Shown here piece after piece: positions 15,399-63,563 of a stretch of DNA of 64,000 nt (position 1 is the stretch's first letter; every line of letters begins with the position of its first letter). The DNA is taken from IMG/VR virus record IMGVR_UViG_3300025593_000028, positions 31,289 through 95,288 of that record; one strand, given 5' to 3'. Under the pieces are notes generated by a model. It ran no database searches. It was not told the DNA's origin and saw only the letters and a list, made by a program, of their open reading frames with translations. Source of the stretch: a virus. Position numbers and translations under genes: made by a program.

Positions 15399-15724
15399 GC
15401 CTAGCTCAGTATCGCAAGCTCGCGGTCTCGGTGGTGTCGTTCGGGGCGGCTGCGGTCGCGCTGTTCATCACCACTGACCCGGGGCTGAACGCAGCGCTCG
15501 TGTCCCTCGTCGGCGCCGGTTTCGGCGTCGTGGCGGTATTCGCCGCGAAGAACCACACGCCAGACGACCTCTCGAAGGCCGTCGCGCAGCTGCAGGGCGC
15601 CGCCCTGTCGGTGGCTGGCTTCTTCGTGACGGTCCCCACCACGCTGCCCGAGAAGCTGGCCGTGCTGTCTGCGGCCGCGGTCTCGGTCATCGGCGTCTAC
15701 TGGGCGAGGAACGAACCGTCGTGA
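15395..15724 (+). CDS. Holin, putative
   Basis: 109 residues behind AAGGAGG. Three hydrophobic segments: about residues 8-27, 31-52 and 66-108 (the last could be one or two spans), separated by a short polar loop (AKNHTPDDLSK). Small multi-span protein directly upstream of two endolysin genes, so it most likely forms the membrane hole that releases the lysins at the end of infection. Ends in GTGA overlap with the next frame. Confidence 0.75.
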   Translation: MSLAQYRKLAVSVVSFGAAAVALFITTDPGLNAALVSLVGAGFGVVAVFAAKNHTPDDLSKAVAQLQGAALSVAGFFVTVPTTLPEKLAVLSAAAVSVIGVYWARNEPS

Positions 15725-15903
15725 GTGGACGGGGGTGCCCGAGCGGATGCCTGGGCACCCCCGTCGCTCGCTTCGATGCCCCGCGCAGGAGGCTCCACTT
15801 CTCGGTGCTCTGCGACAAGTGCGGCCACAGACTGAGCACGCCGGCCCCGCCCCAGGACTACTCGCCGGACCCGAAGCTCGGCCCAGGGATCAGCAGACCA
15901 TAG
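15721..15903 (+). CDS. Small cysteine-pair protein, uncertain
   Basis: 60 residues from GTG 15721 overlapping the holin TGA. Two Cys pairs (CPSGC and CDKCG) suggest a zinc ribbon. Against it being a gene: its 5' end is also a perfect 10-bp hairpin (15731-15762). Its TAG is the first triplet of the -10 box of the next gene. No family recognised. Confidence 0.45.
   Translation: MSGRGCPSGCLGTPVARFDAPRRRLHFSVLCDKCGHRLSTPAPPQDYSPDPKLGPGISRP
15731..15762 (+). terminator. Strong GC hairpin, 10-bp perfect stem
   Basis: GGGGGTGCCC (15731-15740), 12-base loop, GGGCACCCCC (15753-15762), seven bases after the holin stop. No T-run follows. Either a tailless terminator or an RNA structure between holin and lysin. 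Confidence 0.5.
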
Positions 15904-15906
15904 GAT
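15901..15906 (+). promoter_or_regulatory. Leaderless-type -10 box TAGGAT(CT)
   Basis: TAGGATCTGCTCG-ATG: 7 bases between box and ATG 15914, no Shine-Dalgarno. Nearly identical to the box before 2296. Confidence 0.6.
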
Positions 15907-15913
15907 CTGCTCG

Positions 15914-16552
15914 ATGGCCACGAACGGTCGCCTGAGCAAGTCCGAACTCGCCCCGATCCCCGGGGGAGAACTGCGCAAGGACGCGGCAGCGGCTTGGAAC
16001 GCCCCAGGCGGGCCCGCAGACGCCGGCCTGCGCCCGACCGGGTCGATGTCGAGCTACAGGACCTACGACGAGCAGGTCTACCTCTACAAGCTCTACCTGG
16101 AAGGGAAGGGCGCGCTCGCAGCCGTGCCGGGCACGTCGAACCACGGCTGGGGAGTCGCCGTGGATCTCGCCGAGCCGTGGATGCGCGACTGGATCGACCA
16201 GCACGGCGCCAGGTACGGCTGGAAGAAGACCGAAGCTCTCAGCGAGTGGTGGCACGTGAACTACGTCGGAGGGGTGCACTTCCCGACGTTCAGGCCCCTG
16301 TCTTACCCGCGGTCGCGCGGGCGCAGGGTCGTGCGCTACACGAAACGACTGAAGTTCATCCGCAAGCGCAACGGACAGCGCTACATCAAGCGCTGGTACT
16401 GGCGCTTCAAGAAGCCCGTCCGCTGGGCCGTGAAGGACTTCCAGCGCGACCACGGGCTCAAGGATGACGGGGTGATCGGGGCCAAGACAGGATCTAAGAT
16501 CGACGCTGTGTTCCGCCGTCAGTGGCGACGCAGGAAGGTGGGGAAGCGGTGA
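15914..16552 (+). CDS. Endolysin 1: M15 (VanY-like) peptidase with peptidoglycan-binding domain
   Basis: 212 residues. Residues ~40-120 carry the M15 zinc peptidase pattern: SSYRTYDEQ, SNHGWGVAVDL (His and Asp ligands near 76-83) and EWWHVNY (last His near 112). These enzymes cut D-Ala-D-Ala or L-Ala-D-Glu bonds in murein. The C-terminal part has a PG_binding_1 repeat (AVKDFQRDHGLKDDGVIGAKT near 175-195) and a very basic tail. Leaderless-type start. Overlaps the second lysin by GTGA, so the two are co-translated. Confidence 0.88.
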   Translation: MATNGRLSKSELAPIPGGELRKDAAAAWNAPGGPADAGLRPTGSMSSYRTYDEQVYLYKLYLEGKGALAAVPGTSNHGWGVAVDLAEPWMRDWIDQHGARYGWKKTEALSEWWHVNYVGGVHFPTFRPLSYPRSRGRRVVRYTKRLKFIRKRNGQRYIKRWYWRFKKPVRWAVKDFQRDHGLKDDGVIGAKTGSKIDAVFRRQWRRRKVGKR

Positions 16553-22347: not shown

Positions 22348-22758
22348 CTACTCCTTTGTCGAATTGCAATGCGGAAGATGCTGTGCTACATTAGCAAATA
22401 GAAAACCACACGATGGGCAAAAATCAAGAGCAGATGGCCCCTGCCCCCAGCGGCCCATCGGCACTGGATCTTTGAAATACTGCTCTTTTCTACGGCTGGA
22501 CAGCCACGGGCTCAACAGCTCGAACACGGCACCTACCGCTACAGCTGACCTAGCTCGCCAGCGCCAAGACCAGTCATAGTTGTTGCGGTCAGACGGTGTC
22601 TTTGACCTGATGACATGTCCCACTCCCACTACATGATGAAATCTACGTACTGGCTCCTCATCGCACATGAGTAGAGCCGCAGATGAGCTGGTCCAATGCC
22701 CCTCTCCCTCAAAGAGCCCGGCTGCCCAGGCGGCCTCGGCGTCGCTTACTCCTGCCAC
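22348..22758 (-). CDS. LAGLIDADG-like homing endonuclease with C-terminal zinc knuckle, putative
   Basis: 136 residues, GTG 22758 overlapping the methyltransferase end by 13 bases. AAWAAGLFEGEGHW is a LAGLIDADG-type helix with the acidic residue; DEEPVRRFHHVVGVGHVI is the strand-helix usually found in these phage endonucleases. The C-terminus adds FCPSCGFLFANVAQHLPHC, a C2H2-like finger. Base composition here is visibly less GC-rich than the neighbours, consistent with a mobile insertion. Only one LAGLIDADG motif, so it would act as a dimer. Confidence 0.65.
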   Translation of the reverse strand: MAGVSDAEAAWAAGLFEGEGHWTSSSAALLMCDEEPVRRFHHVVGVGHVIRSKTPSDRNNYDWSWRWRARSAVAVGAVFELLSPWLSSRRKEQYFKDPVPMGRWGQGPSALDFCPSCGFLFANVAQHLPHCNSTKE

Positions 22759-24020
22759 GGCTCCGGCCTATGCACCCATCCTGAGATCTCTTGCGGCCAG
22801 CGCCGGTAGTCAAGTGAGCAGTTGAACTCGTACTCGCGATCTCCTATCTTCTTGCAGGGCGCACCTGGTTTCCCGTCAAGCGCACGTCCGACCCACCCTG
22901 AGATCCAGCGACCGTTCTCCACTGGAGCGCACTTGCCCACGTACTTCGACGCGTTCCCGACCGAGATGCCCTCCGGCCAGCGCCAAGCGTCCGGCAGGCC
23001 CATGAGCCTCGACAGCTCGCGGATCGTGAGGAATCGCGTCTCGCTCCAGTGCACGAACTTCGACGCGCCGGACCCTGCTACCACGTAGCCCGGCCGGTCG
23101 GGACGGATCCTAGTGGGCCACTGCCAGCCTCGCGGGTCGCGCCAGTTAGACTCGTCGTAGGCGAACCGCTGCAGCAGCGTCGGGGGCGGCGAGTCCTGCT
23201 TGAGGATCGCCTCCTTCATGTTCTCGCCCGGGAGCCAGTCCTGCTCGATCTCGCGCAGCAGCGCCCCGAGCCGCGCCGTGTCTTCGTCGATCGTCACGTG
23301 CGCGTCGACCCGGCCGTCCTCACGGCGCTTCCTCGCGGCCCACTCGCTCGGTTTCCGGCGGATCGCCTGCTCGCCCCACTTGATCGAGAGCTTCTGCAGG
23401 TCACCGATGGCTTCCTCGTACGTCACGACCTTGCGAGGCTCGGGCGCGTCGATCCCGAACGGCACCCGGTGAGCGACCCAGAAGTAACGGTGCCGGAGCT
23501 GCGCCGCCCCGACCGTCGCCCCCGACATCATCACGTGCGTCAAGTCGTAGCTCTGGCCCGACGATCGCTCTAGCTCAGAACGCAACCGAAGCATCAGGTC
23601 TCGCCCGGTCGTGTAGGCCTGCTGCACGGACTCGAAGGCCACGATCTCTGCTCCCGGGGCGCCGTCCTCGCCCGTGCAGCGACCGCCGAACTTGGCTAGG
23701 TCTCTCATGCACGAGTTGATGGGCGAGTCCGGGCCCCTGGAGTTCTCTCCCTTGGAGACGTTCATCAGCGAGAAGCCGCTGCACGGCGGGGTGCCGTGCA
23801 CGTAGCCTACGCCATCGTAGGGCTCCCACTCGCGCTCTGGGGCCTCCTGCACCTCTACTCCCTCGGTGCCCAGCAGCTCAGCGTTCTCGTAGAACGCGTC
23901 ATCACCGAAGCCGCCCGGTAGGGTCGCGCGGCCGACCACGTCAAACTTCTCCGTCTCCACGGTCCCCAGCGTCCAGTGGCCCGCGAGGCCCTGGCAGTCT
24001 ACGGCGCGGTGCTTGCTCAC
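22746..24020 (-). CDS. DNA (cytosine-5) methyltransferase-like protein
   Basis: 424 residues. The Dcm-type motifs are present but diverged: motif I-like VDCQGLAGHWTLG, motif IV GTPPCSGFS with the catalytic Cys, motif VI-like AFESVQQ (ENV in classical enzymes), motif VIII-like RHRYFWV, motif IX RELSRLMGLPDAW, and motif X GNASKYVGK. Transfers methyl from AdoMet to cytosine C5. May protect phage DNA from restriction. The long region between VIII and IX (~200-300) would read the target. GTG 24020 overlaps the preceding stop. Confidence 0.85.
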   Translation of the reverse strand: MSKHRAVDCQGLAGHWTLGTVETEKFDVVGRATLPGGFGDDAFYENAELLGTEGVEVQEAPEREWEPYDGVGYVHGTPPCSGFSLMNVSKGENSRGPDSPINSCMRDLAKFGGRCTGEDGAPGAEIVAFESVQQAYTTGRDLMLRLRSELERSSGQSYDLTHVMMSGATVGAAQLRHRYFWVAHRVPFGIDAPEPRKVVTYEEAIGDLQKLSIKWGEQAIRRKPSEWAARKRREDGRVDAHVTIDEDTARLGALLREIEQDWLPGENMKEAILKQDSPPPTLLQRFAYDESNWRDPRGWQWPTRIRPDRPGYVVAGSGASKFVHWSETRFLTIRELSRLMGLPDAWRWPEGISVGNASKYVGKCAPVENGRWISGWVGRALDGKPGAPCKKIGDREYEFNCSLDYRRWPQEISGWVHRPEPWQE

Positions 24021-26159: not shown

Positions 26160-26750
26160 TCAGAAGCCGCGCTGCCTCCTGCGGATCTTCTCTGCCAGCT
26201 TCGGTTCAGACACGTGAGTGTAGATCATAGTGGTGTCTACGCTCTTGTGGCCGAGCAGGTTCTGGATCTCGCGGATGTTGAGGTCTCCCTCGCTCATCAG
26301 CTCGGTCGCGTACGTGTGCCTGAGCATGTGCGGGTGGCACGGGCCTTCGATGCCGGCCCGCCGCCCGTAGCGCTGCATCATCTGCCAGCAGTAGTGCGGG
26401 GACACGGGGCTCCCCTTCAGCGTCACGAAGAGAATCTTGCTTCCGTCCGCGTATTTCTCTCGCTCTCGCTTCCAGCGTTCTACGAGCTCGAGCGTGCCGT
26501 CCTCGATCTGGACGTAGCGCTCCACCTTGTTCTTGGCGATGGCCGCGCGGATGTGGATGCGCCGCTCGCGCACCTGGACGTCGCGGACGTTCAGGCGGCA
26601 GAGCTCGCCCACTCGCAGCCCTGCGCGGTACATCAGCTCGAGCATCGCGCGGTTCCTGATGCCGGTCGGCCGCCGCATGTTCGGCACCGCCAGCAGAGCA
26701 CGCACGTCCTCGTCCGAGAAGATCTTCGGAAGCTCTCGTCCCTTCTTCAT
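26160..26750 (-). CDS. Short tyrosine recombinase (catalytic domain only)
   Basis: 196 residues. All catalytic residues are visible: Arg46 (AGLRVGELC), His141-x2-Arg144 (HMLRHTYATEL), His168 (LLGHKSVDTT) and Tyr177 (MIYTHV). XerC/D-type domain. The core-binding N-terminal domain (~100 residues in XerC) is missing. ATG 26750 was chosen because AGAGGAGAAA precedes it; 23 further in-frame residues exist upstream (to 26819) but start inside a -10-like box. It lies beside two tRNA genes and an AT-richer gap. It may integrate, or resolve replicated genomes. Confidence 0.82.
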   Translation of the reverse strand: MKKGRELPKIFSDEDVRALLAVPNMRRPTGIRNRAMLELMYRAGLRVGELCRLNVRDVQVRERRIHIRAAIAKNKVERYVQIEDGTLELVERWKREREKYADGSKILFVTLKGSPVSPHYCWQMMQRYGRRAGIEGPCHPHMLRHTYATELMSEGDLNIREIQNLLGHKSVDTTMIYTHVSEPKLAEKIRRRQRGF

Positions 26751-29392: not shown

Positions 29393-29724
29393 AGTTCCAC
29401 CCCCAGATGGTCTACGGCACGGGCGAGCGCGATGCGAAGCCCGAGCTTCTTGTTGAAGTTGTCTTTCTCCGAGCAGTCCGCCACGCCGGTGGACCCGTAG
29501 TTCCCTCCCGGTCCCTCCAAGCGCACGACCGTCTTGCCACCTGTTGGAAGCAGGCTAACCCGCTTAGCGTACAGTCCCGCTTCTCCTCCGTAAGGAAACA
29601 TCTTCTTGAGCTCGTCAAGCTCCCACTTGGCGTACAGGCCGCCGTCACTTGCGCGACGTAGGTGCTGCACGCGCACCGTGTACCCGCGCCTTCGCAGCTC
29701 TACTATCTTCTCGCTAGGACTCAC
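29389..29724 (-). CDS. Hypothetical protein
   Basis: 111 residues, GTG overlapping the preceding stop. N-terminal helix then beta (SEKIVELRRRGYTVRVQHLR), a Gly-rich middle (EGPGGNYGSTG), helical end. No family recognised; co-translated with the DUF6378-like gene upstream. Confidence 0.7.
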   Translation of the reverse strand: MSPSEKIVELRRRGYTVRVQHLRRASDGGLYAKWELDELKKMFPYGGEAGLYAKRVSLLPTGGKTVVRLEGPGGNYGSTGVADCSEKDNFNKKLGLRIALARAVDHLGVEL

Positions 29725-30005
29725 AGCTCGTCATCTCCCTCCAGCACCGCGTCGAGCAGCGCGTATCCTACTACGTCCACCGCGGTGTCTCGCTTGTAAC
29801 CCTCTGCTCCTCTGATCGCCTTCAATAGTACCATGAGCATGGTCACGTCGTGCGGGGTGATCGGGTCGTCGTCGATCGACCGGCCCGCCAGGTACGCGTT
29901 CCACGCGTCTGCCAGCCTCTGAAAGTTCACCCTCGGGTGGCCGTAATCCTCCTGGCGCTGTCCGCGGATCAGCTTTTCTGCCTCTTGTCCTACCGTATCC
30001 CCCAT
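29721..30005 (-). CDS. DUF6378-like phage protein
   Basis: 94 residues from ATG 30005. EDYGHPRVNFQRLADAWNAYL, then TPHDVTMLMVLLKAIR and TAVDVVGYALL form the typical pattern of the phage DUF6378 family (function unknown, often near nucleotide-metabolism genes). All-helical, MazG-like in general look. Confidence 0.75.
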   Translation of the reverse strand: MGDTVGQEAEKLIRGQRQEDYGHPRVNFQRLADAWNAYLAGRSIDDDPITPHDVTMLMVLLKAIRGAEGYKRDTAVDVVGYALLDAVLEGDDEL

Positions 30006-30010
30006 CAGTG

Positions 30011-30589
30011 CTACCCTACGCCGTCCACCCCGAGGAAGCCGGCACGCCCGAGGAACAGGTCTTTCGGCGTGCCCTGGAAGCGGAGGGAGGTGCGCACGGC
30101 GACCCCGTCCGGGAGCTTGCCGAGCTCGTCGAGATCTCGAGTCAGCCCCTCCGACGGCATCAGGAGGCGGGCCTCGGCTACGAGCGCTCGGTTGTCTGCT
30201 TCCTTCACGGTCTCGTGCGATAGAGCCCCGAGGTCGATGTTTAGGCTTTCGAAGATCACTTCGTCTGCGGCCTCGGCGAGTCGCTCGTACTCCGGTCCGA
30301 TCTGGCTCTTGAGCGGCTTTGGCAGGTCTCCCAGGTACGCCTCGTGGGCGTCGTGGAACAGCCCCGCGACGACTACGTCTAGGTCTTGGTCCCACGCTTC
30401 GAGGATCTCGCTCACGAGCACGCAGTGCTGCGCGACCGAGTAGAACTTCGAGGTGTGGCCGCCGAACCGGCACGTGTTGCCCAGCCCGTGCGCGACGTCT
30501 GCTAGGCAGACCTGGCTCGGCTTCGGGTCCGCGTAGTCGTAGATCAACCCCGACGCAGTCTCGATCCTAGTCTCCCCGAACCAAGTCAT
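30011..30589 (-). CDS. HD-domain phosphohydrolase (YfbR-like 5'-nucleotidase)
   Basis: 192 residues from ATG 30589, overlapping the helicase stop (ATGA). Contains RFGGHTSKFYSVAQHCVLV (first His), LFHDAHEAYLGDLPKPLK (HD pair and E) and a later Asp, the arrangement of YfbR-type dNMP phosphohydrolases. Removes the phosphate from deoxynucleoside monophosphates. In a phage with a dNMP kinase and a ThyA-family enzyme it may remove unwanted dNMPs. Confidence 0.78.
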   Translation of the reverse strand: MTWFGETRIETASGLIYDYADPKPSQVCLADVAHGLGNTCRFGGHTSKFYSVAQHCVLVSEILEAWDQDLDVVVAGLFHDAHEAYLGDLPKPLKSQIGPEYERLAEAADEVIFESLNIDLGALSHETVKEADNRALVAEARLLMPSEGLTRDLDELGKLPDGVAVRTSLRFQGTPKDLFLGRAGFLGVDGVG

Positions 30590-32295
30590 CCTCCGAGCCA
30601 CCTCCGCATCGTGTCCTCGTCCCGGACGATCTCCTCCAGGAGCTCTAGCTTCGTGCCGTACGTATCGAGCACGTCTTTGTCCACCGTATCGGCGGCTACG
30701 ATGTCTATCGTCAGGAGCCGCCCCTCTCGCCCGGGCCGCTGGGCGCGCTCTTCGGACTGCGCGTTCTTGACCGCAGACCACGAGCGCTCGAGGTACACCT
30801 GCGCGTCGGCGCGCGAGAGGTTGATGCCCTCCGCTCCGGCTCCGAAGGTGACGAGCAGCACCTGCAGGTCTCCGTCCTGGAAAGCGGCGCGATTGCGCTC
30901 CCGCTGCGCGGGATCGACGGTGCCGGTGAACTGCCCGCAGGACACGCCGATCTTCTCGAGCCGGGCGGCAGCGAGCTCGATCAGCTGGCGGCTCTCGGCG
31001 AAGACCACGATCTTGTCGTCCCCCAGCTCTTCGACCACGTCCACGAGGTCGTCGACCTTGCTCGACGGCTCTTTGAGTTCTACGTTACCGTCGTCGTCGA
31101 TCTTCCCAGTCGCGCCTGCGAGCTGGCGCAGACGGCCCATGCGCTGCATGGGGTTCGACGCCATCAGCACCCCGCCTTCCAGCTCTACCAGCATCTCTTT
31201 CCTGAGCGAGTCGTACGCTTTGCGCTGCTTCGGCGCTAGGTCGACGACCCTCGTGGTGGGAGGCAGCTTGTCGGGCAGCTGCGGCAGGATGAGCTTCTTA
31301 GGCCGCCTGATCAACCTCGGGTCGAGGAAGCGAAAGAGCTCGTCCCTGGTGTCCCCGCGCAGCCCTACGACCTCCATGCGGCCGAACGGATTCCAGCGCA
31401 TGAGGCCGTAGCGCTCGACCCACTTCGTCTTAGACGGGTACTCGTCCGGGGCCACGAAGCGCATGACCGCCCACAGGTCCTCCGGCGTGTTGGCCACCGG
31501 GCTGCCGGTCAGCGCAAACCTGTACGTGGCCTTGTCGCCCACCGCCCAGAGCGCTCTTGTCTGCTGCGCCTTCGGCGACTTGGCTCGGTGCGCCTCGTCG
31601 GCGATCACCGTCTTGAGCCCCATCTCGTTGAGCTCCTTTAGCTCCTTCTCCTTGTCCTTGAGCCGGATCGAGCCGTAGCCAGCGAGGCGGCTGTGTAGTT
31701 TGAGCGCCTCCCAGTTGATGACGTACACCTGGGCCTCCGCGGCGAGCGCCTCGCGGCGCTTCTTCGCGCTACCGGCGACGACTGAGACGTCGACCCCTGG
31801 CCACCAGGTAGCGAACTCGTTGCGCCAGTGCGGCTTGACGCTGTTCGGCGCGACCACCAGCGCGGGGAACGGGTCGTCTAGGCGCTTGAGCGCGCATATC
31901 GTCATCGGCGTCTTGCCCGCGCCCATCGGGTCGCAGTTGAGTGCTTGGCGCGCGGTGCTCATGAAGCCCACGCCCGACCTCTGCAGCGGCGAGAGCCTCG
32001 GCTCGTCTACGTCTGGGCAGTCTCCGGCGTCCCTCAGCGCCATGCACGGCGTCACGCGGAGCTCGAGCACCTGCCGCGCGAGCCCCTCTAGCTCTGGCTC
32101 GATCACGAGCCTGTCGCCGAACACGCCTCGCAGCTGCTGCATCGCGGCCCACGACAGCGGGGCGACCCAGGTGCGCTCCGCTTGGTTCCACGTCGCGCCG
32201 GGTACGCCGTCGCGTACGTTCTCCTTGTCCTGGTAGCCGGCGCCGACCTCGATCTTCTGGTCGTCGCGCAGTCCAACGTGTACCGGCTCGTTCAC
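30586..32295 (-). CDS. SNF2-family DNA helicase/translocase
   Basis: 569 residues. Motif I DPMGAGKTPMT, motif Ia VVAPNSVKPHW, motif II IADEAHRAKSPKAQQT, motif III LTGSPVANTPEDLW, then the second RecA lobe with KIVVFAESRQLIE, LLVTFGAGAEGINLSRA (motif V) and RAQRPGREG (motif VI, R-x-x-R). Residues ~1-90 hold a small N-terminal domain (TWNQAERTWVAP). Translocates on duplex DNA; phages use it in replication restart or recombination. GTG 32295 overlaps the RuvC-like gene. Confidence 0.88.
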   Translation of the reverse strand: MNEPVHVGLRDDQKIEVGAGYQDKENVRDGVPGATWNQAERTWVAPLSWAAMQQLRGVFGDRLVIEPELEGLARQVLELRVTPCMALRDAGDCPDVDEPRLSPLQRSGVGFMSTARQALNCDPMGAGKTPMTICALKRLDDPFPALVVAPNSVKPHWRNEFATWWPGVDVSVVAGSAKKRREALAAEAQVYVINWEALKLHSRLAGYGSIRLKDKEKELKELNEMGLKTVIADEAHRAKSPKAQQTRALWAVGDKATYRFALTGSPVANTPEDLWAVMRFVAPDEYPSKTKWVERYGLMRWNPFGRMEVVGLRGDTRDELFRFLDPRLIRRPKKLILPQLPDKLPPTTRVVDLAPKQRKAYDSLRKEMLVELEGGVLMASNPMQRMGRLRQLAGATGKIDDDGNVELKEPSSKVDDLVDVVEELGDDKIVVFAESRQLIELAAARLEKIGVSCGQFTGTVDPAQRERNRAAFQDGDLQVLLVTFGAGAEGINLSRADAQVYLERSWSAVKNAQSEERAQRPGREGRLLTIDIVAADTVDKDVLDTYGTKLELLEEIVRDEDTMRRWLGG

Positions 32296-32753
32296 TCGCC
32301 GTCCCCTTCCATCGCAGACATCCTACGGGCTACCAAGCTGCGAAAGTCGGAATCGTGCTGGCACAGGTACAGCAGCAGGTGGCGGCTCGCATCGCGGGCG
32401 TGGTCGGTGCCCACGGTCCACCACCCCATCGCACGAAGCTTGTCGTCGTTCGAGAAGCCCTTGGCCTCGGCGGGGGTCTGCTTGTTCGAGAACTCGAGGC
32501 CGTGCTCGCGGCACAGGTGCCGCAGGTAGCCGACCTGCTCGACGGAGGAGAGCACCTGCTCCCCCTTCCTGATCGTGTGCTGCGTGATCGTGATGCGCTC
32601 GACGACCACCGCTCCGCCGAAGCCCGACCGAAGCGCCTCTCGCGCCCAGTCCATGGCCTCATCTTCGGGCGCGTCCCACGCGCTGTGCTCGCCATCCCTC
32701 CAGAGCGCGAGCCCGGTCTGGAACCCGGTGTCGAGAGCGAGCACGTCAGGCAT
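32292..32753 (-). CDS. RuvC-like Holliday junction resolvase
   Basis: 153 residues, RNase H fold: ALDTGFQTG (first Asp), AVVVERITI (Glu), and TDHARDASRHLLLYL (final D-x-x-x-H/D). Resolves branched DNA during recombination and packaging. ATG 32753 lies inside the end of the polymerase gene (8-base overlap), so it is co-translated with it. Confidence 0.82.
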   Translation of the reverse strand: MPDVLALDTGFQTGLALWRDGEHSAWDAPEDEAMDWAREALRSGFGGAVVVERITITQHTIRKGEQVLSSVEQVGYLRHLCREHGLEFSNKQTPAEAKGFSNDDKLRAMGWWTVGTDHARDASRHLLLYLCQHDSDFRSLVARRMSAMEGDGE

Positions 32754-34497
32754 ACAGCGCCCCCCAGCGCTTAGTCGTGTCTACGTCCACGGTGAGCGGG
32801 ACCTTGAAGTGCTCGGTCTCCGGCATCACCTCTTCGATCGTGGCCACGGCTTCGTCTAGGCTGTCGTCCGGCACGCTGAACACGACCTCGTCGTGGATCG
32901 GCAGCAGGATCTGCGGGCCCAGCCCCGCCTGCGCGAGCTCGATGATCTTCAGCTTGAGCACCTCTCCGGCCGTGCCCTGGTCGCGGTAGTTGACCCCCTT
33001 GTAGGCTTCGTCCTTGGGGACGAAGAGCCTGCGGCCGAACTCCGTGTGAACCTCGCCCCACCCCTTGTCGCCGCCCCGCGACTCGTGTACTTCCTGCGAC
33101 ACCTGTTCTTGGAACGCGGCGACGCGAGGGAACAGCGCGTCGTACCGCTCGAGCACCGAGGCGGCCTCGCTTTCGCTCAGCCCAGCCGAGTACGCGAACT
33201 TGGTCACGCCGGCGCCGTAGATCTTGGCGTACCCTGACGTCTTCGCGACGTTCCGCTGCTCGTACACAACTTCCTCGAGGCTCTGCAGGCCGAAGATTTC
33301 CTGCGCAGTCCACTTGTGCAGGTCTTCGCCGGAGCAGAACCGAGAGATCATGTTCTCCTCGTCCGCCATGTGAGCGAGGAGCCTGAGCTCGATCCCAGAG
33401 AAGTCGGCCGAGATCAGGGTCTCACCCTCGTCCGCGATGAAAGCGTCCCTGCCGACCGAGGACTTGGGCAGGGTCTGCAGCGCGGGTTCGGTGATCGACA
33501 TCCTCCCGGTCTTCTGCGCGCCGAGCACACGAACCGACGGGTGCACGCGGTCGTCTGCCTCGATCTTCAGCAGCTTGTCGAAGTAGCTGCCTTTCAGCTT
33601 GCTGCACTCCCGGTAGCGACGCATGTCGTGGCACTCCGGGATCTTTCCCTCCCAGTACTCGAGCACCTCGTCGTCCGCTGCGAGGTGGCCCTTCTCGGTG
33701 CGTTTGGTCAGCGTCGCGCCACGCGACTGCAGGAACTCGACGACCTGCTTCGGCGCGTTCGGGTTGCACGGCAGCTTCGGCGACAGTGCTGCGATCTCGG
33801 CCTCCAGCTCGAGCGACGTCTTACGGCAGAAATCTACGTCCACCCGCATCCCGCGCAGCTCTGCGTCGCGCAGGGCGTGGATCGAGCCGAGCTCGATGTC
33901 GTAGGAGCGCCGGTACCTGTCGCGCACTTTGGGCCAGAGCTTCTCCGCGATCCTGCACGTGAGCACCGGGTCCAGCGCACCGTACTGCCAGTACGGCGGG
34001 AAGTCCAGCGGCACCGTGTCCCAGTCCCAGCCCTGCTTCTTCATGGCCTCGTGCAGCACGACCTGTCCGGCCAGCGCCTTCTTGTCTACGAGTCGAGATG
34101 CCACGGGCTTCAGGCCCACCGGCAGGTGGGAGGTCACGAGCTGCGCCATGACCATCGTGTCCTCGGCGAGGTGCTGCGGCACGGTCACGCCGTCGCGCTT
34201 CAGGAACGCCGAATCGAAGATCAGGTTGTGCGCGACCAGCGGCGACGAGTCGTACGCCTCGATCAGCTCTTTGAACGCGCCGTAGAAGCTGTTAGGTCCC
34301 TCGCACGGGATCGCCCAGCCGTGGTCTCTGTCGCCGAGCTGCGCGAGCCGCACCCTGTCTCGGCCGAGGTTCACCCCAGTGGTCTCGAGGTCGAACCCGA
34401 GCCAGTCCCTCGACCGGCCCAGCCACTCGCGTAGATCCAGCAGCTCGTCGGTGGACTCGACGAGCGTCAGGCCCACGCGCTCAAGTCCCTCAGACAC
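32746..34497 (-). CDS. DNA polymerase I (family A) with 3'-5' exonuclease domain
   Basis: 583 residues. Exonuclease motifs: GFDLETTG, VAHNLIFDSAFL, YGALDPVL (the third is diverged). Polymerase motif A SADFSGIELRLLAHM, motif B RNVAKTSGYAKIYG, motif C LLPIHDEVVF. In motif B the residue matching E. coli Phe762 is Tyr, as in T7 polymerase. Lacks the 5' nuclease domain. Main replicative polymerase; sits between the glycosylase and RuvC genes with 8-base overlaps on both sides. Confidence 0.93.
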   Translation of the reverse strand: MSEGLERVGLTLVESTDELLDLREWLGRSRDWLGFDLETTGVNLGRDRVRLAQLGDRDHGWAIPCEGPNSFYGAFKELIEAYDSSPLVAHNLIFDSAFLKRDGVTVPQHLAEDTMVMAQLVTSHLPVGLKPVASRLVDKKALAGQVVLHEAMKKQGWDWDTVPLDFPPYWQYGALDPVLTCRIAEKLWPKVRDRYRRSYDIELGSIHALRDAELRGMRVDVDFCRKTSLELEAEIAALSPKLPCNPNAPKQVVEFLQSRGATLTKRTEKGHLAADDEVLEYWEGKIPECHDMRRYRECSKLKGSYFDKLLKIEADDRVHPSVRVLGAQKTGRMSITEPALQTLPKSSVGRDAFIADEGETLISADFSGIELRLLAHMADEENMISRFCSGEDLHKWTAQEIFGLQSLEEVVYEQRNVAKTSGYAKIYGAGVTKFAYSAGLSESEAASVLERYDALFPRVAAFQEQVSQEVHESRGGDKGWGEVHTEFGRRLFVPKDEAYKGVNYRDQGTAGEVLKLKIIELAQAGLGPQILLPIHDEVVFSVPDDSLDEAVATIEEVMPETEHFKVPLTVDVDTTKRWGALYA

Positions 34498-34939
34498 CCC
34501 CGTCGCGCTCCCAGGCCTTCAGCAGCTCCTTGTCCTTCGGCTTGAAGGAGCGGTCTCCCCACGCCACGAAACGGTATGCTTCCACGGTGTACTCGCCGCA
34601 GCCCGGTAGCTCGCCGACCCACTCGTGGGGCGGTCGGATCCCGAACGAGACGACGCATTCCCATTCGTGGAACTTGTTGCTGACGATGTTGAGCGTGTCT
34701 GCCCGGCGAGACTGGAGCCCGCACGGCGAGATCACAGATTCAACCTCGGCGCGGTCTGCTAGGGCGAGCTCCGCCGGTTCTGGCCAGCGCGAGAACAGCT
34801 CGTCCAAGACTGGGCGCACCTGCGAGCCGGAGGTCTGCTGGCACATGACGGTCGAGACGACCACGCGCCACGGCATAAAGGTCCGGTCCTCTCCCGCGTA
34901 CTCCTCCTGGATCAGCAGCCCGTCGCGCACGGCGTGCAC
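34490..34939 (-). CDS. HhH-GPD DNA glycosylase, MBD4-like
   Basis: 149 residues from GTG 34939 (GAAGG upstream; GTG 34942 also possible). VVVSTVMCQQTSGSQVRPVL and the hairpin ELPGCGEYTVEAY mark the HhH-GPD fold. The Lys of EndoIII is Tyr here, ruling out a lyase of that type, and the block FVAWGDRSFKPKDKELLKAW closely follows the end of MBD4 (catalytic Asp in P-x-D). No Fe-S cluster tail. Expected to remove T or U (or a modified pyrimidine) from mismatches. It is sandwiched between the ThyA-family gene and the polymerase. Confidence 0.78.
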   Translation of the reverse strand: MHAVRDGLLIQEEYAGEDRTFMPWRVVVSTVMCQQTSGSQVRPVLDELFSRWPEPAELALADRAEVESVISPCGLQSRRADTLNIVSNKFHEWECVVSFGIRPPHEWVGELPGCGEYTVEAYRFVAWGDRSFKPKDKELLKAWERDGGV

Positions 34940-35892
34940 CACCCCACCTTCCCGCTTTCTGCGTAGATGTCGGGCCAGTGGTCCTGATCGTCTGGGAGCA
35001 CGTAGCGGCAACTCGGGCAGATCCTGCCCCCCGACTGCGTACCGTCTAGCACGTCCTCGTACCAACGATGCGCGCTCGGCACTACGTCTGGCTCAGAGGA
35101 GATGCCGGTGATCGCCGCGAAGCTCTGCTGCACCCACCTCCAGCGGTCCAGCGCGACCTCTTCACGCAGCCGCTCGCCCACAGGGAGCGGATACGCGGGC
35201 GGCTGCTCGAACTCCTCGTCGCCGCCGGCCGACCACGTGGAGATGTCGTCCCTGTCCACGTAGGCGTGCATGCTGTAGCAGTGGTGCGAGTAGCGGCCCG
35301 GCTCGACGCCGAGCGCGAACGCCAGCGCGCGCTGCGCGGCCGTGAACTGCATCCAGTCGTACGGCGTCCCCCACACCAGGTCCTGCGACCTCATCGTCGT
35401 GAAGGCCTCTAGCTTGTCGTCGCGGATCTGGTAGAAGAGGTTGAGCGTGCACGGCACGTCCTTAGACGGCCTCTCGAGCTCGCGGCCGAGCCAGATCGTG
35501 ACGCCGGCCTGCCTAGAGTCCCGGTCGGAGCAGAGCTGCGACACCACGCGGGGCCACTGCAGCGCTACCCTGGGCCCGTACGCACCGAGCAGCCTGTGGC
35601 CCGCTGGGCCCTCCACGAACATCGCGAAGTTCTTTGCGCAGTTGACGAGTTGGTCCGCGTCCGAGTACCCGCCCACGAGGTTGGTCGCCTCGGCCGCTCC
35701 GATCTTCGCTACCAGCTTCCTGCCGACCCCGGTGGGCGCCGGGCGAGTCGGATCCTCTAGTACGGTCGTCACTGCGGGGAGCTCGAGCGTCCTGTGCCCC
35801 CTCGGCCGCACCTCGCGGCCCCGCTCGAGCAGAGCGTCTCGCACGCGTAGGTAGAGCTCGGACGCGCTGCCTCCCTGGAACACCTCAGCCAT
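34912..35892 (-). CDS. ThyA-family enzyme, predicted dCMP (hydroxy)methyltransferase, with zinc-ribbon tail
   Basis: 326 residues. Thymidylate synthase signatures: LLGAYGPRVALQW, DSRQAGVTIW, the catalytic Cys148 in DVPCTLNLFYQ, RSQD at 168-171, and YSMHAYVDRDD. The residue that matches Asn177 of E. coli ThyA (uracil-reading) is Asp179 (GTPYDWM), as in T4 dCMP hydroxymethylase, so the substrate is probably dCMP. Residues ~285-326 add CPSC ... CTPC, a zinc ribbon not found in ThyA. ATG 35892 overlaps the kinase stop. Plain thymidylate synthase remains the alternative. Confidence 0.78.
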   Translation of the reverse strand: MAEVFQGGSASELYLRVRDALLERGREVRPRGHRTLELPAVTTVLEDPTRPAPTGVGRKLVAKIGAAEATNLVGGYSDADQLVNCAKNFAMFVEGPAGHRLLGAYGPRVALQWPRVVSQLCSDRDSRQAGVTIWLGRELERPSKDVPCTLNLFYQIRDDKLEAFTTMRSQDLVWGTPYDWMQFTAAQRALAFALGVEPGRYSHHCYSMHAYVDRDDISTWSAGGDEEFEQPPAYPLPVGERLREEVALDRWRWVQQSFAAITGISSEPDVVPSAHRWYEDVLDGTQSGGRICPSCRYVLPDDQDHWPDIYAESGKVGWCTPCATGC

Positions 35893-36500
35893 CAGCGCAG
35901 CAGCCCCGCGAACGCGGGGTCCTCTAGATCGTCTGCGACGACGCAGTACTCTGGGGTAGCCGAGCAGTTCTTCTCCTCGTTGATCGCCGCCGTGGCCACG
36001 TCGTCTGCGTGCACCGTCCCCATGTCGAACTCCATTGTCCTCGCGGCCTGCTGCTCGAGGAACCTGAACTGCTGCCGGAACATCGCGTCGGCCGCCGGCA
36101 CGAGCGCGGTCGGGAGAGGCTCCGGCGGTCGAGCCTCTACGAACTCGGCGTGGATCTCGTCTAGCGGCCGTTCGCACATGACGAACAGCGCTCCCTTCGA
36201 CGCGTACGCTGCGACTAGCAGCGCGTACTCGCCGGGGGTCAGAGCCGGGGTGCGCGAGAAGAGCGTGGGCCAGACCGACTCGCCCACGAACGACCTGTCG
36301 AGCACGACGTTCCTGCTCGCATTCGGGACATACTTGAGGATCGGCTCGAGGTACTCGTCCACGGCGCGCGGGCTCTCCGGGCGTTCAGCGTGGATCACCC
36401 GCGTGCCACGGCCGTTGAGCCGGCTCAGGGTCTGGGGCATCTTGTCGGCCAGCGTCGACTTGCCGGTCCGGTCTACTCCCTCGATGACGATGAGTGCCAC
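35892..36500 (-). CDS. Deoxynucleoside monophosphate kinase (thymidylate kinase-like)
   Basis: 202 residues from GTG 36500, after GGGAGGG. P-loop IEGVDRTGKST at ~6-16, VVLDRSFVGESVW (DR-x motif of dTMP kinases) near 80, CERPLDEIH near 120 in the place of the lid. Phosphorylates dNMPs; directly followed by the ThyA-family gene, so it may activate the modified dCMP or dTMP. First gene of the replication operon ending at 27157. Confidence 0.82.
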   Translation of the reverse strand: MALIVIEGVDRTGKSTLADKMPQTLSRLNGRGTRVIHAERPESPRAVDEYLEPILKYVPNASRNVVLDRSFVGESVWPTLFSRTPALTPGEYALLVAAYASKGALFVMCERPLDEIHAEFVEARPPEPLPTALVPAADAMFRQQFRFLEQQAARTMEFDMGTVHADDVATAAINEEKNCSATPEYCVVADDLEDPAFAGLLR

Positions 36501-36653: not shown

Positions 36654-37556
36654 TCATACGCCCCGTCGGTACGGATCGTCGTCCGGGTCTTCGGCGTCCT
36701 CGAACGCCTGGAACACCGCCTGCGCCTTGGCCTCCTCCTCGTCCATGCCCGCATCCTCGTTCTCCCACTTGAGCCGGTAGCGGTTGATCGTGACGAGTGC
36801 TGCCTTCTGCTCTTCCTGCACGACGCGGCTGCTCACGCCGAGCGCCTCGGCCACGTCGTTCCTGAGCATGGACGGCCCTTCGAAGCCGAAGCGCATCTCC
36901 ACGACGCGTCGCTGCCGCTCAGACAGTTGGTCCATCGCGGCACGCAACCACGGGTACGTGTCGATCGCGAGCTGCGCTGGGTCGACCGCGTTCGGGTCCG
37001 CGATCGTCGTGTGCCTCCCGTCGCGTCCGTCCTCGTCGTCGCCGACCGACGCGTCGAGCGACACGCTGGCGCGCGGGCCATCGACCGCCTCGACCGCTTC
37101 GTCGACGTCTATCTCCAGGGCCTCTGCCGCCTCCTCCAGAGTCTCGTCGTGCTCGTCCATGCGCTTCTTGAGCTTCCTGCGCGCTCGCTGGAGCTGCCCG
37201 GGCACCTTGATGAGGTTGCCGTCCGGGCCGGCGACGTAGCGCTGCAGGTGCTGTTTGATCCACCACGTCGCGTAGGTGGAGAATTTGAAGCCCTTCTCCG
37301 GATCGAACTTTTCGAGTGCTTTCATCAGCCCGAGCGTGCCCTCCTGCACCAGGTCCTCCATGCTGTGGCCCATGCGCGCGTACCGCTTCGCGATCGAGAT
37401 CACGAGCTTGACGTTGTGCTCGATCATGAGTCGGTGCGCCTCTCTGTCGCCGGCCTGCGCGGCCCGCGCTAGCTCTTTCTCGCGGTCCCCGCCGAGCACC
37501 TCCCGCGTGCCGATCTCCCTGATGAAGGACCTGAACTCATCCCCGTGCTCGCTCAC
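36654..37556 (-). CDS. Phage-encoded sigma-70 family RNA polymerase sigma factor
   Basis: 300 residues from GTG 37556 (GTGA overlap). Region 2: LMIEHNVKLVISIAKRYARMG, SMEDLVQEGTLGLMKALEKFD and GFKFSTYATWWIKQHLQRY (~44-108). Region 3 ~110-160. Region 4: LSERQRRVVEMRFGFEG then NDVAEALGVSSRVVQEEQKAAL (~210-260). In region 2.4 the SigA residues that read the -10 box (IRQAITRA) are changed to IKQHLQRY, so it may prefer a different box. Directs host core polymerase to phage promoters, probably the late ones. Last gene of the helicase-primase operon. Confidence 0.92.
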   Translation of the reverse strand: MSEHGDEFRSFIREIGTREVLGGDREKELARAAQAGDREAHRLMIEHNVKLVISIAKRYARMGHSMEDLVQEGTLGLMKALEKFDPEKGFKFSTYATWWIKQHLQRYVAGPDGNLIKVPGQLQRARRKLKKRMDEHDETLEEAAEALEIDVDEAVEAVDGPRASVSLDASVGDDEDGRDGRHTTIADPNAVDPAQLAIDTYPWLRAAMDQLSERQRRVVEMRFGFEGPSMLRNDVAEALGVSSRVVQEEQKAALVTINRYRLKWENEDAGMDEEEAKAQAVFQAFEDAEDPDDDPYRRGV

Positions 37557-40880: not shown

Positions 40881-42218
40881 CTAGTCGTCTGCTGGTACGC
40901 CGACGGGGGCCATCGCTACGCCGACCGGGCGCAGCTTCTCGAGCACCTCGATCGTGTCGCCCTGCGACTCGAGCACGTCCGCGAGCCGCTTGTACGCGCC
41001 TGGCGCCTCCTCCGCTCCTGAGCCGCGGAGCTCTACCCCTGCCACCTGCGTGACCTGCGCGTGCTCCGCGTTCCAGTCGATCTCGCCCTCCGCCATCTGT
41101 ACCCAGCGCTTGCTGAGCGTGGGGTGGCCACAGCTCGGGCACTTGCCGTCCTCGGGCTTGTGCGTGTGCGGTGGCTGGAACCAGTCGCAGTCTCGGTTGT
41201 TGCACGACCACCGCTTCTTCTGCTTGCCAGCGGCCCGCGACCTGCTCATCGCGCGGCCCGCGCCGTGCACCGTGGAGAACAGAGCGCGCTGCTGCAGCTC
41301 CGTCTCCTCCACAGCAGTACCGACGTCGAACGAACCGCGGCGCGCGCCGCAGAGGATCACGCTCTCCTCTCCCATCGTCGATCCGACGAACCCCTCCTGG
41401 CCCGGGAAGGCGGGGGTGCAGCCCTTGCGCACTACCCAGAAGGTCTCGCCCCGGTGCTCCTCCTCCCACGCGAAGTTGTGGTGGTTGTGGACCTCGTGCT
41501 CCGCCTCGGTCCCGAGGATCTCCAGCACCTCGGATACGACGACGTCGCGGCCCGCGTACGCGTACTCGCCGGCGAGCGACATCGCCGAGAGGTACGACTG
41601 GCCCTCCTCGGAGTCGGTCCTGAACGTGACCGGAGACCCCATGAGGTCCTCCTTGCACTCGCCCTTCGTGCCGAAGGGCTTGCCGCGCGAGACCCACAGG
41701 AACCCGTTCGCGGTCGTGTGCCCGAAGCCACGCGAACCGAAGTGGACGCCGATCCAGAGCTTGCCGTCGTCACCCTCGAAGAGGTCCACGTAGTGGTTGC
41801 CGCCACCTACGCTGCCGAGCTGGTGCGCTGCCTTGTCGAGCAGCGACCGCTGCGGGCTGAAGTCCGCCTCCCTGATCTTGTCGAGCACCGGGTGGTCCGC
41901 GTCGAGGCCGCCTTCACCCGGGCCGAACGGGATCCGATCGTAGATCTCGTCCATGACCCCGGGCACGTCGACGTCCTCGACGAGGAGCGGGGTGCGCACG
42001 GCCTTGTTCCCGCACCCGATGTCGTAGCCGACGCCGGACACGGAGATCCGCTCGCGGTACGCGATGGCCATGCCGACGGGCTGGGCGTACCCGAGGTGGT
42101 TGTCGGCGCACAGCACGCCGATCGACCCCTGCTGGGCGTCGAGACAGTTACGCGCCTGCTCGAGCGTCTTCTCGTCTGCCTCGCCGAAGACGGTCAGGTC
42201 GTAGTAGCGTCCACTCAC
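40881..42218 (-). CDS. rtcB: RtcB-type RNA ligase with inserted zinc ribbon
   Basis: 445 residues. Active-site features: GYDIGCGNK (metal-binding Cys), GGGNHYVDL, VHFGSRGFG, EVHNHHNFA and HGAGRAMSRSRA (guanylated His loop). Between ~330 and 365 an added ribbon is inserted (CNNRDCDWF ... CPSCGHP). RtcB joins RNA ends with 2',3'-cyclic phosphate and 5'-OH, such as tRNAs cut by host anticodon nucleases. With the RNA ligase at 43192-43887 and the tRNA genes it suggests an RNA-repair module. GTG 42218. Confidence 0.92.
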   Translation of the reverse strand: MSGRYYDLTVFGEADEKTLEQARNCLDAQQGSIGVLCADNHLGYAQPVGMAIAYRERISVSGVGYDIGCGNKAVRTPLLVEDVDVPGVMDEIYDRIPFGPGEGGLDADHPVLDKIREADFSPQRSLLDKAAHQLGSVGGGNHYVDLFEGDDGKLWIGVHFGSRGFGHTTANGFLWVSRGKPFGTKGECKEDLMGSPVTFRTDSEEGQSYLSAMSLAGEYAYAGRDVVVSEVLEILGTEAEHEVHNHHNFAWEEEHRGETFWVVRKGCTPAFPGQEGFVGSTMGEESVILCGARRGSFDVGTAVEETELQQRALFSTVHGAGRAMSRSRAAGKQKKRWSCNNRDCDWFQPPHTHKPEDGKCPSCGHPTLSKRWVQMAEGEIDWNAEHAQVTQVAGVELRGSGAEEAPGAYKRLADVLESQGDTIEVLEKLRPVGVAMAPVGVPADD

Positions 42219-42749: not shown

Positions 42750-43211
42750 CTAGTCGAGGACTACGTCGTAGTCCACGCCGTGTTGATCGAAACTCCTCTG
42801 CAGCCTCCCGTAGTCCTCCGCGCCCATGCACGCGTAGACCAGCTCTAGGTAGATCCTCGCCATCCACGGGTCGTGGCTCTGCGAGCCGAACCGCGCGTCT
42901 GCCAGCACGTGCGCTACCTCGTGACACAGGATCAGCGGCCTCATGTGGTCGCTCATCATGTCGCAGACCCCGGCGCCCTTCACGGCGTCGAAGCCGCCCA
43001 CGCTACCCCCCTGGCCGTCTGGATGCTCGAAGACCTCCACGCGCAGCACGTGCCTGAAATCTCCCTCCCACCTCCGATAGCGGTCGCGCATGCGGTCCAC
43101 GAAGTCCTGCGCCTCGGCTAGGAGCATCTTGTGCCCCCAAGCCGGAGCGCCATCGCCGGGGAACTCGATCCGGCGCTCGGCCTCGTAGAGGCTATCCTGC
43201 TGGCACGGCAT
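42750..43211 (-). CDS. HExxH zincin-like metalloprotein, putative
   Basis: 153 residues. LILCHEVAHVLADAR is an HExxH zinc-protease motif; the downstream SHDPWMARIYLELVY may supply the third ligand. Size is small for a secreted protease, so an intracellular peptidase (SprT- or ImmA-like) is more likely. The start overlaps the RNA ligase gene by 20 bases, with AAGGACC ahead. Confidence 0.65.
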   Translation of the reverse strand: MPCQQDSLYEAERRIEFPGDGAPAWGHKMLLAEAQDFVDRMRDRYRRWEGDFRHVLRVEVFEHPDGQGGSVGGFDAVKGAGVCDMMSDHMRPLILCHEVAHVLADARFGSQSHDPWMARIYLELVYACMGAEDYGRLQRSFDQHGVDYDVVLD

Positions 43212-43887
43212 TTTCTAGGTCCTTCCCCTTGAGCTTGCACACGAGCCGGCCCCCGTTCCTGCTCAGCAGGCCGAGCGGGGCCTGCGCTACTAGGCCCTCT
43301 GGCTCGACGTCGCCGCCCCAGCGAGACTCGAAGCCGAGTTCCACGAGCTTGTGCATCCCGTCTAGCGTGCCGTAGTCGACGGTCGGCACGGACTCGATGC
43401 CGAGCGACTCGGCGATGCCGTGGACGTCGGCGGGCTTGAGCCACCAGCGGCCGATGCGGACGTCGAACAGCACGAAGTCCGCGCCGTCTGCTTTGTAGTT
43501 TCCCCCGCCCTTCTGGATCTTCGCTCCGTAGCCCTCGCCGTAGAGGGTGACCAGCGCTCGGCCGTCCTCGTCGTCGCCGGCATCGGGGAACACCTGCTCG
43601 AAGAGCTGCTCGCCGGGGTCGCCGCCGAAGAGCTCCTGCAGCCGCTCGACGAGGTGCATGGGCATCTGGGCGCGGTCGGTCTTGCCGCCGAAGCGCACCT
43701 TCTGCCCGTCCCACCCCACGCGCACGTTCGTGCCGTCGACCTTCTCGGTGAACCGCCAGGGCAGGTCGGCCAGCATCTCGAGCTCCGGGCTCGAGAAGGA
43801 CCCGACCAGCAGCCTGTGCGGCTTGTCCGACTCGCGCTTCCACAGCGTCGGGATCTTGTGGTACTTGCCGTGCATGCCCTCGCTCAC
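43192..43887 (-). CDS. ATP-dependent RNA ligase (Rnl2-like)
   Basis: 231 residues from GTG 43887 (GAGGAGGGG upstream). Nucleotidyltransferase motifs: I EKVDGTN (adenylated Lys), Ia VRVGWDG, III-like ADFVLFDVRIG, IV EGLVAQ, V RLVCKLKGKD. N-terminal YHKIPTLWKRE is the usual opening of phage Rnl2-type ligases. Seals 3'-OH/5'-P RNA nicks, complementing RtcB, which uses the opposite end chemistry. Confidence 0.85.
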   Translation of the reverse strand: MSEGMHGKYHKIPTLWKRESDKPHRLLVGSFSSPELEMLADLPWRFTEKVDGTNVRVGWDGQKVRFGGKTDRAQMPMHLVERLQELFGGDPGEQLFEQVFPDAGDDEDGRALVTLYGEGYGAKIQKGGGNYKADGADFVLFDVRIGRWWLKPADVHGIAESLGIESVPTVDYGTLDGMHKLVELGFESRWGGDVEPEGLVAQAPLGLLSRNGGRLVCKLKGKDLENAVPAG

Positions 43888-62658: not shown

Positions 62659-63231
62659 TTACTGGTCGAAGTATCCGTCCGGCGCGGGCTCGCCGTAGAC
62701 CCGTTCGTACTTCTCCGGCGAGTCGATCGTGCGCTCCTCGATACCGAGCCCGTCGAGCACCCGGTCCTGCAGGGCGTGGAACCACACGCGCTCCGGCGCC
62801 GTGTCGAGCAGGCCGCGCACCCTCTCGAGCTCGTCGAGGACGTGCTCCTGCACGTCTCCGCCGTCCGGGACGAGCGGCTCCTCGCCGGCCACCGGCTCGA
62901 CGTTGAAGACGGCGTCGTGCAGCCTGCGCTCGATCGTCGCCCTGCGGGTCGGGGACAGCGGGGGGTCCGCCGCGTGGCGGACGGCGCGGCGGCACTCGGA
63001 CTCCGGCAGCTCGCAGTCCACGATCCCCGGTGGCACGACGCGATACCCGGAGGCGGAGAGCCTCGCGTGTACCTTTTTGCGGAGCACCGAGTCGCCGTCG
63101 GTGCTGTAGACCAGCCGCTGCGGCTCGCCGCGGGTGCGTTCGACCGAGGCCCGCTTCTCCTCCGGGGGCTTCTCGGTCGTGCCCACGCGGGTCACGCCGC
63201 TGCCGGCTATGAAGAAGATCTGGGTGCTCAC
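62659..63231 (-). CDS. GIY-YIG-like (MUG113/T5orf172-type) protein, putative
   Basis: 190 residues from GTG 63231 (GTGA). QIFFIAGSGVTRVGTTEKPP, EEKRASVERTRGEPQRLVYS and SVLRKKVHARLSASGYR follow the GIY-YIG order of the MUG113/T5orf172 group, but the catalytic Glu before the 'lH..f' helix seems to be Arg. The rest is helical with DAVFNVEPVAGEEP. Nuclease activity is doubtful. Confidence 0.5.
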   Translation of the reverse strand: MSTQIFFIAGSGVTRVGTTEKPPEEKRASVERTRGEPQRLVYSTDGDSVLRKKVHARLSASGYRVVPPGIVDCELPESECRRAVRHAADPPLSPTRRATIERRLHDAVFNVEPVAGEEPLVPDGGDVQEHVLDELERVRGLLDTAPERVWFHALQDRVLDGLGIEERTIDSPEKYERVYGEPAPDGYFDQ

Positions 63232-63563
63232 ACCTCGCACCCGCAGCCCTTCGCGCGCAGGGCGGCGAGTTGGTCGTCCCAGGGCTCGGGCCAGTGCACG
63301 ATCGAGCTCGCCGAGTCCAGAGAGATCGGGCTGTGATGGTTGTACCCGCGGTGTTTCATCTCGTAGGCGAGAGTGTAGTGTCGGTTGAACAGCGCGTTGA
63401 TCCCGTCGTCGGTCATCCAGCGCTTCACCTCTGGATGGTGCTCGTACGGAGACCCGCTGCGCTCTCCGGTGATGATCCGCCAGATGGCGTGTAGCTCGCG
63501 GTGCTCTCCCAGGAGGTGCTGGCGGCAGAGCTTGGACGGCGGTACGGCGTCCCAGATCCTCAC
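63228..63563 (-). CDS. Pyrimidine dimer DNA glycosylase-like (T4 endonuclease V family)
   Basis: 111 residues from GTG 63563 (GTGA). VRIWDAVPPSKLCRQHLLGE followed by HRELHAIWRII is the family's diagnostic start, EHHPEVKRWMTDDGINAL and EMKHRGYNHHSP the second half. T4 DenV cuts at UV dimers; many phage relatives are annotated this way without direct proof. Confidence 0.78.
   Translation of the reverse strand: MRIWDAVPPSKLCRQHLLGEHRELHAIWRIITGERSGSPYEHHPEVKRWMTDDGINALFNRHYTLAYEMKHRGYNHHSPISLDSASSIVHWPEPWDDQLAALRAKGCGCEV

Follow-up and report, generated by a model that had tools for sequence, protein, structure and literature searches.

The window is a stretch of 64,000 bases taken from a possibly incomplete virus record of 95,288 bases, in which it spans positions 31289-95288. 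The virus is actinophage-like. Four genes on the minus strand overlap head to tail between 36500 and 32746 and encode a kinase, a ThyA-like enzyme, a DNA glycosylase and a DNA polymerase, in that order (Table 1). The TGA of the kinase gene and the ATG of thyA have one base in common (TGATG), the start codon of the glycosylase falls within the 3' end of thyA, and the polymerase gene starts within the end of the glycosylase gene, with an overlap of 8 bases. Because of these overlaps, the four genes very probably form one coupled translation unit. A preliminary description of this DNA had read cytosine modification from the enzyme and the kinase, and had noted that their genes overlap. Both genes and their overlap stand, but the overlapping gene for a glycosylase of the MBD4 type had been missed. 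A primary-type sigma-70 factor (regions 1.2 to 4) is encoded directly upstream of the kinase gene.

Table 1. Genes discussed in the text, numbered by window position except where another sequence is named.
Feature	Position	Strand	Length and start	Remarks
Primary-type sigma-70 factor	36654-37556	-		
P-loop dNMP kinase, probable modified-dCMP kinase	35892-36500	-	202 aa, GTG start	
ThyA-family enzyme, probable dCMP 5-hydroxymethylase	34912-35892	-	326 aa, ATG start	
MBD4-type HhH-GPD DNA glycosylase	34490-34942	-	150 aa	Pfam HhH-GPD
Family A DNA polymerase with 3'-5' exonuclease domain	32746-34497	-	583 aa	
Protein downstream of polA, in the slot of the RuvC-like resolvase of related phages	32292-32753	-	153 aa	identity from gene order only
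SNF2-type helicase	30586-32295	-		next in the conserved replication run
HD-domain, YfbR-like deoxynucleoside 5'-monophosphate phosphatase	30011-30589	-		possible pool adjuster
DUF6378 protein	29721-30005	-		PF19905; possible pool adjuster
C5-cytosine methylase-like protein	22746-24020	-		PF00145; PPC motif kept
Pyrimidine dimer DNA glycosylase (T4 DenV type)	63228-63599	-		PF03013
Tyrosine integrase	26160-26750	-		PF00589, 1.2e-45
RNA-repair set	40881-42218, 43192-43887 (-); L002:11239-12051, 13312-13815, 15460-16005 (-)			
5-hmdU DNA kinase homologue	G:27398-28012			left arm of the record, outside the window; PF18748
ADDT (amino acid:DNA transferase)-like protein	G:25499-26527			left arm of the record, outside the window; PF18724

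The ThyA-like protein matches PF00303 with 44.5 bits (cut-off 24.3). Every nucleotide-binding or catalytic residue examined is conserved: R31, E68, R127, C148, R168, S169, D171, G175, H209 and Y211, which correspond to E. coli positions 21, 58, 126, 146, 166, 167, 169, 173, 207 and 209. The preliminary description had placed an Asp at the base-selecting site, and the alignment bears this out, since Asp179 pairs with E. coli Asn177 and with Asp179 of T4 gp42. At the equivalent of E. coli position 147 the enzyme has Thr149, and T4 gp42 likewise has Thr there instead of His. In the MetaGPA study, positions 177 and 147 best separate the thymidylate synthases of modified-cytosine contigs, which mostly have Asp at 177 (PMC8670742).

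The best match among solved structures, in both sequence and fold, is MilA, the CMP 5-hydroxymethylase of mildiomycin biosynthesis. The residues behind its preference for ribo-CMP are Ala176 and Lys133 (PMC5175136). Unlike MilA, the window enzyme has Ser169 and Arg127 at these places, as in deoxynucleotide enzymes, and ribo-CMP was rejected as its likely substrate on account of these two residues.

The distribution of the Asp was surveyed in 241 ThyA loci from viral contigs, gathered with four queries and then sorted into classes. Asp stands at the equivalent of position 177 in 160 of the 161 loci from Asp-type queries (the remaining one is unreadable) and in none of the 80 from the dUMP-type query, so Asp179 is not a matter of chance. 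Taken together, Asp179, Thr149, Ser169 and Arg127 indicate that the substrate is most probably dCMP. The enzyme sits on a long branch with an uncertain place in the tree; the branch of T4 gp42 is also long. Used as single-protein queries against the viral contigs, neither the enzyme nor the polymerase found a relative. The protein ends in a zinc-ribbon-like Cys4 tail (C292, C295, C319 and C322; 34912-35040) that is absent from aligned relatives and modelled with a pLDDT under 50.

The kinase upstream is recognised by a profile built from related loci. In the two Asp classes that have such kinases, a member of this family is encoded immediately upstream of thyA at 54/80 and 34/35 loci (88/115), as against 0/46 XP12-like and 0/80 dUMP-type loci (0/126). 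It also precedes the Asp-type thyA of DSL-LC01, Phendrix and Kurnik. Such class-specific adjacency would be expected if the kinase were dedicated to modified dCMP, which is the probable role of this one.

The glycosylase finds its best solved relatives in MBD4 structures (1.3e-8), followed by the T:G glycosylase Mig. A profile of 17 phage members gives the same order, with MBD4 at 2e-31, Mig at 3e-14, EndoIII at 3e-13 and MutY at 4e-12. The predicted structure has a pLDDT of 89.6, and its top fold match is mouse MBD4 bound to G:5hmU. MutY, EndoIII and Mig contain an iron-sulphur Cys4 motif. In the window protein the only cysteines are at 34, 74, 96 and 115, outside the spacing of that motif, which is absent, as it is from animal MBD4, a T:G and hmU:G glycosylase. 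The window protein also shares with animal MBD4 a single HhH-GPD domain. MBD4 has residues Q449, Y540 and catalytic D560 (PMC12073362); their counterparts, Q12, Y118 and D137, do not vary among the 17 phage proteins.

Two features separate the window protein from MBD4. Its 150 residues make up the glycosylase domain alone, without the methyl-CpG-binding domain, and the arginine finger R468 is replaced by Gln36. Because of this replacement, the need for an opposite G is uncertain in the window glycosylase. At this position XP12-like proteins have Leu, and the relatives on contigs L021, L073 and L025 have Arg. The genome encodes a second DNA glycosylase, a pyrimidine dimer glycosylase of the T4 DenV type.

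Relatives of the MBD4-type glycosylase occur in only nine records of the phage collection. In the annotated records examined, those of Donnerlittchen, DoCa6 and AXL1, the gene lies one gene from an Asp-type thyA. Two of these phages, DoCa6 and AXL1, are closely related to XP12, in which all cytosine is replaced by 5-methylcytosine (PMC9206674). The AXL1 paper finds this ENDO3c gene otherwise in XP12 only and assigns it no role (PMC9206674); the gene of XP12 itself (record MT664984) is known here from that paper and from relatives.

Among the viral-contig loci, an MBD4-type glycosylase is encoded within about 10 kb of 16/160 Asp-type and 0/80 Asn-type thyA genes (p=0.001), the loci being picked by query and related by descent, with 15 of the 16 in the XP12-like class. 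When loci are clustered at 60% identity, the counts are 9/52 and 0/32 (p=0.01). There are about three independent contexts: the XP12-like class, L073, which belongs to the ThyA class of the window, and the window genome. Most Asp-type phages do not have the gene, and T4, which was searched, is also without it, so the glycosylase is not obligatory.

Wherever its context can be read, the partner of the glycosylase is a cytosine-type ThyA. Contig L024 is a mere fragment of the virus to which L025 also belongs, which explains why it shows no ThyA, and contig L021 ends just past the glycosylase gene, with no context readable. As far as sequences can tell, the pairing of an MBD4-type glycosylase with an Asp-type ThyA recurs in other phages predicted to modify cytosine. 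Two further candidates for MBD4-like relatives, L019 and L281, were rejected, both being MutY-like; L281 was the sole match of a pattern scan across about 85,000 bacterial and archaeal genomes.

From the gene order, the overlaps, the active-site residues, the family memberships and the class-specific associations, the catalytic steps, the product and a repair role of the operon can be inferred. With methylene-tetrahydrofolate as donor, the ThyA-like enzyme would attach a one-carbon unit to C5 of dCMP, and the reaction would be ended by water, not by hydride, to give 5-hydroxymethyl-dCMP. The upstream kinase and the NDP kinase of the host would convert this product into the triphosphate. The polymerase of the phage would have to accept the modified substrate and would incorporate it into DNA. 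Deamination of the modified cytosine would then leave 5-hydroxymethyluracil, or thymine in the case of 5-methylcytosine, opposite G. Clearance of either base from this position by a uracil glycosylase is not expected. The MBD4-type enzyme could excise it, after which repair would restore the pair; MBD4 itself is known to remove hmU and T opposite G (works cited in PMC12073362).

It is fairly probable that the operon works in this way, supplying hydroxymethylated cytosine for DNA and repairing its deaminated product. The preliminary description had already proposed that dCMP is modified in the nucleotide pool and then phosphorylated. This fits the Asp and Thr at the equivalents of positions 177 and 147, the deoxyribose-selecting residues and the class-specific upstream kinase, and it fits the 95-kb record, in which no dCMP deaminase, the enzyme that would make dUMP, was found. 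The simplest role for the glycosylase would be to guard the modified genome from C-to-T change.

The product might be a different base. In an XP12-like system the enzyme would be a dCMP 5-methylase, the DNA would contain 5-methylcytosine, and the glycosylase would clear T from T:G. This is where the MBD4-type partner is commonest (15/46 XP12-like loci), and one phage with such a partner, AXL1, is closely related to XP12. The details of the enzyme, the kinase and the folate genes make such a reading rather improbable. All 46 XP12-like loci have Trp at E. coli position 80, and the XP12-like enzymes examined keep a C-terminus like that of thymidylate synthase. The window enzyme has Phe at position 80 and an unrelated Cys-rich C-terminus. 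The residue is Ile, Leu, Val or Met in its 80 nearest relatives and Met, Ile or Phe in all 80 dUMP-type loci. W80 is also found in T4 gp42, which is a genuine hydroxymethylase, so another residue here is an indication of hydroxymethylation and not proof. Folate is turned into dihydrofolate by the methyl reaction only, not by hydroxymethylation. No DHFR gene (PF00186) was found in the 95-kb record, and its absence fits hydroxymethylation. DHFR was found in 0/24 related Asp-type records as against 10/26 XP12-like records (Fisher p=0.0007), the latter count being such that the gene is not a strict XP12-type feature. Finally, the upstream kinase occurs at none of the XP12-like loci. Overall, 5-hydroxymethylation is the likelier of the two reactions. 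There is a very slim chance that the enzyme works like AfhB of phage HY126, a flavin-dependent dCMP 5-hydroxylase, and yields 5-hydroxycytosine. AfhB (PDB 9iqu, 9iqc) is one of the runners-up in sequence (E 4e-10) and fold, but MilA outscores it in both searches, and AfhB differs at the equivalents of D169, G173 and Y209, all three of which are kept in the window enzyme.

Two other readings concern the target of the glycosylase and the base that is modified. Instead of repairing the phage's own DNA, the glycosylase could be directed at the DNA of the host or of rival phages, whether unmodified or with other modifications. The arginine finger, which reads the opposite G, is a Gln here, and specificity may differ from that of MBD4. 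This use of the enzyme is nevertheless unlikely, given that the catalytic and pyrimidine-contact residues of MBD4 are unchanged in 17/17 phage proteins and that every readable context pairs the gene with a cytosine-type ThyA. It is about equally doubtful that the ThyA uses dUMP despite Asp179, and that 5-hydroxymethyl-dUMP is then hypermodified as in phages M6 and ViI. What speaks for it are matches to PF18748 and PF18724, the families of the 5-hmdU DNA kinase and of ADDT in thymidine hypermodification; in all other records tested, these two families accompany Asn-type enzymes only. M6 and ViI, however, have an Asn-type ThyA for dUMP, and the one ThyA that this record was found to encode is of the Asp type. 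Asn stands at the base-selecting site in 80/80 dUMP-type loci, no dCMP deaminase was found to supply dUMP, and the kinase and gene layout are those of the Asp class.

The two hypermodification matches lie in the left arm of the record. The 5-hmdU DNA kinase homologue is solidly identified by sequence: it scores 32.9 bits against PF18748 (cut-off 27) and is recovered by hhalign (98.9%, 3.8e-17), and it has a P-loop and the motif LDTPLExCLxRxxxRNGG. The ADDT-like protein is a tentative match, with 28.7 bits against PF18724 (cut-off 26.2) and no support from hhalign with four phage ADDTs. Its gene lies three genes from that of the kinase homologue. The cluster at G000:25499-28012 (L003:5999-8512) also encodes a dual-specificity phosphatase and lies upstream of capsid genes. 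In 50 records, PF18748 and PF18724 were found in 4 and 5 of the 20 with a dUMP-type ThyA and in 0/30 of the Asp-type; seven further Asp-type records have neither. A tblastn search of the phage collection with the two proteins gave no relative. A scan for Tet/JBP proteins had no match, and its positive control was likewise without match.

A 5-hmdU DNA kinase homologue and an ADDT match in one genome with an Asp-type ThyA make hypermodified cytosine possible. Either hydroxymethylcytosine is hypermodified, or an Asn-type enzyme is encoded in a missing part of the genome, or the ThyA uses dUMP after all. In the first case, hydroxymethylcytosine from the pool would be phosphorylated at the base within DNA and receive an amino acid or amine, guarded by the MBD4-type glycosylase. 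This extended pathway is unlikely, although less so than the use of dUMP. If true, hypermodified cytosine would be made by a route so far known for thymidine, and the kinase homologue, occurring together with a cytosine-type enzyme, would mark a possible new class of DNA base.

The preferred pathway, with pool-made 5-hydroxymethyl-dCMP and an MBD4-type repair enzyme, has parts in common with several known systems. T4 gp42 shares with the window enzyme its ThyA fold, the Asp and Thr at 177 and 147, and the deoxy-selecting Ser and Arg; T4 likewise has a separate dNMP kinase, which raises the product. The two enzymes are about 20% identical and form no clear common clade. Unlike in T4, the kinase gene in the window is adjacent, no glucosyltransferase was found, and a gene for an MBD4-type glycosylase overlaps thyA.

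The cassette of XP12-like phages (Bosavirus) consists of an MBD4-like glycosylase, a pyrophosphohydrolase, an Asp-type ThyA, a dCMP deaminase and DHFR. As in the window, an Asp-type thyA lies close to a glycosylase gene, here at a distance of one gene, and near the gene of a family A polymerase. The differences are W80, the TS C-terminus, the frequent DHFR and the lack of a kinase of the window family on the XP12-like side, and the finding of neither DHFR nor dCMP deaminase in the window genome.

A layout like that of the window can be seen in the operon of the actinophage DSL-LC01, which encodes a kinase, an Asp-type ThyA, a dCMP deaminase, DNA polymerase I, RuvC and a helicase. Gene order, ThyA class and kinase class agree with the window, and similar layouts are found in GMA2, Sixama and Kurnik. 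The window differs in that the MBD4-type glycosylase holds the place of the dCMP deaminase.

A genome with modified cytosine should suffer C-to-T change by way of hmU or T, which are poorly removed by uracil-DNA glycosylase. MBD4-type glycosylases that occur only with cytosine-type ThyA suggest how such phages might keep this change in check, an idea that can be tested, and the gene may serve as a genomic marker for modified-cytosine phages. Among the papers searched, none links MBD4-type glycosylases to cytosine-modifying phages, and the pairing seems not to have been pointed out before.

Other genes may act on the nucleotide pool or on the DNA itself. Of the pool genes named in the preliminary description, the HD nucleotidase is present as a YfbR-like protein. 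The gene of the 'MazG-like' hydrolase is also there, as a DUF6378 protein, but its kinship to MazG was not confirmed, and a deoxyribosyltransferase-like protein was not found in the window. The earlier report of no sugar transferase agrees with a scan of roughly 70 proteins of the 95-kb record, in which none was found. The C5-methylase-like protein has relatives in 15 phage records, and the three checked all carry an Asp-type ThyA with a kinase. It is common to Gordonia phages, DSL-LC01 and Kurnik. Were every cytosine replaced, the DNA of the phage would offer this protein hardly anything to act on; perhaps only part of the cytosine is replaced, or the protein finds its target elsewhere. In some phage genomes its relatives are found near glycosyltransferase or MazG genes.

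The phage genome has at least seven tRNA genes, and the tyrosine integrase gene adjoins those for tRNA-Leu and tRNA-Tyr. An RNA-repair set is also encoded, comprising RtcB, RNA ligase, RlaP, HAD 'Swiss army knife' and polynucleotide 3'-phosphatase-like proteins.
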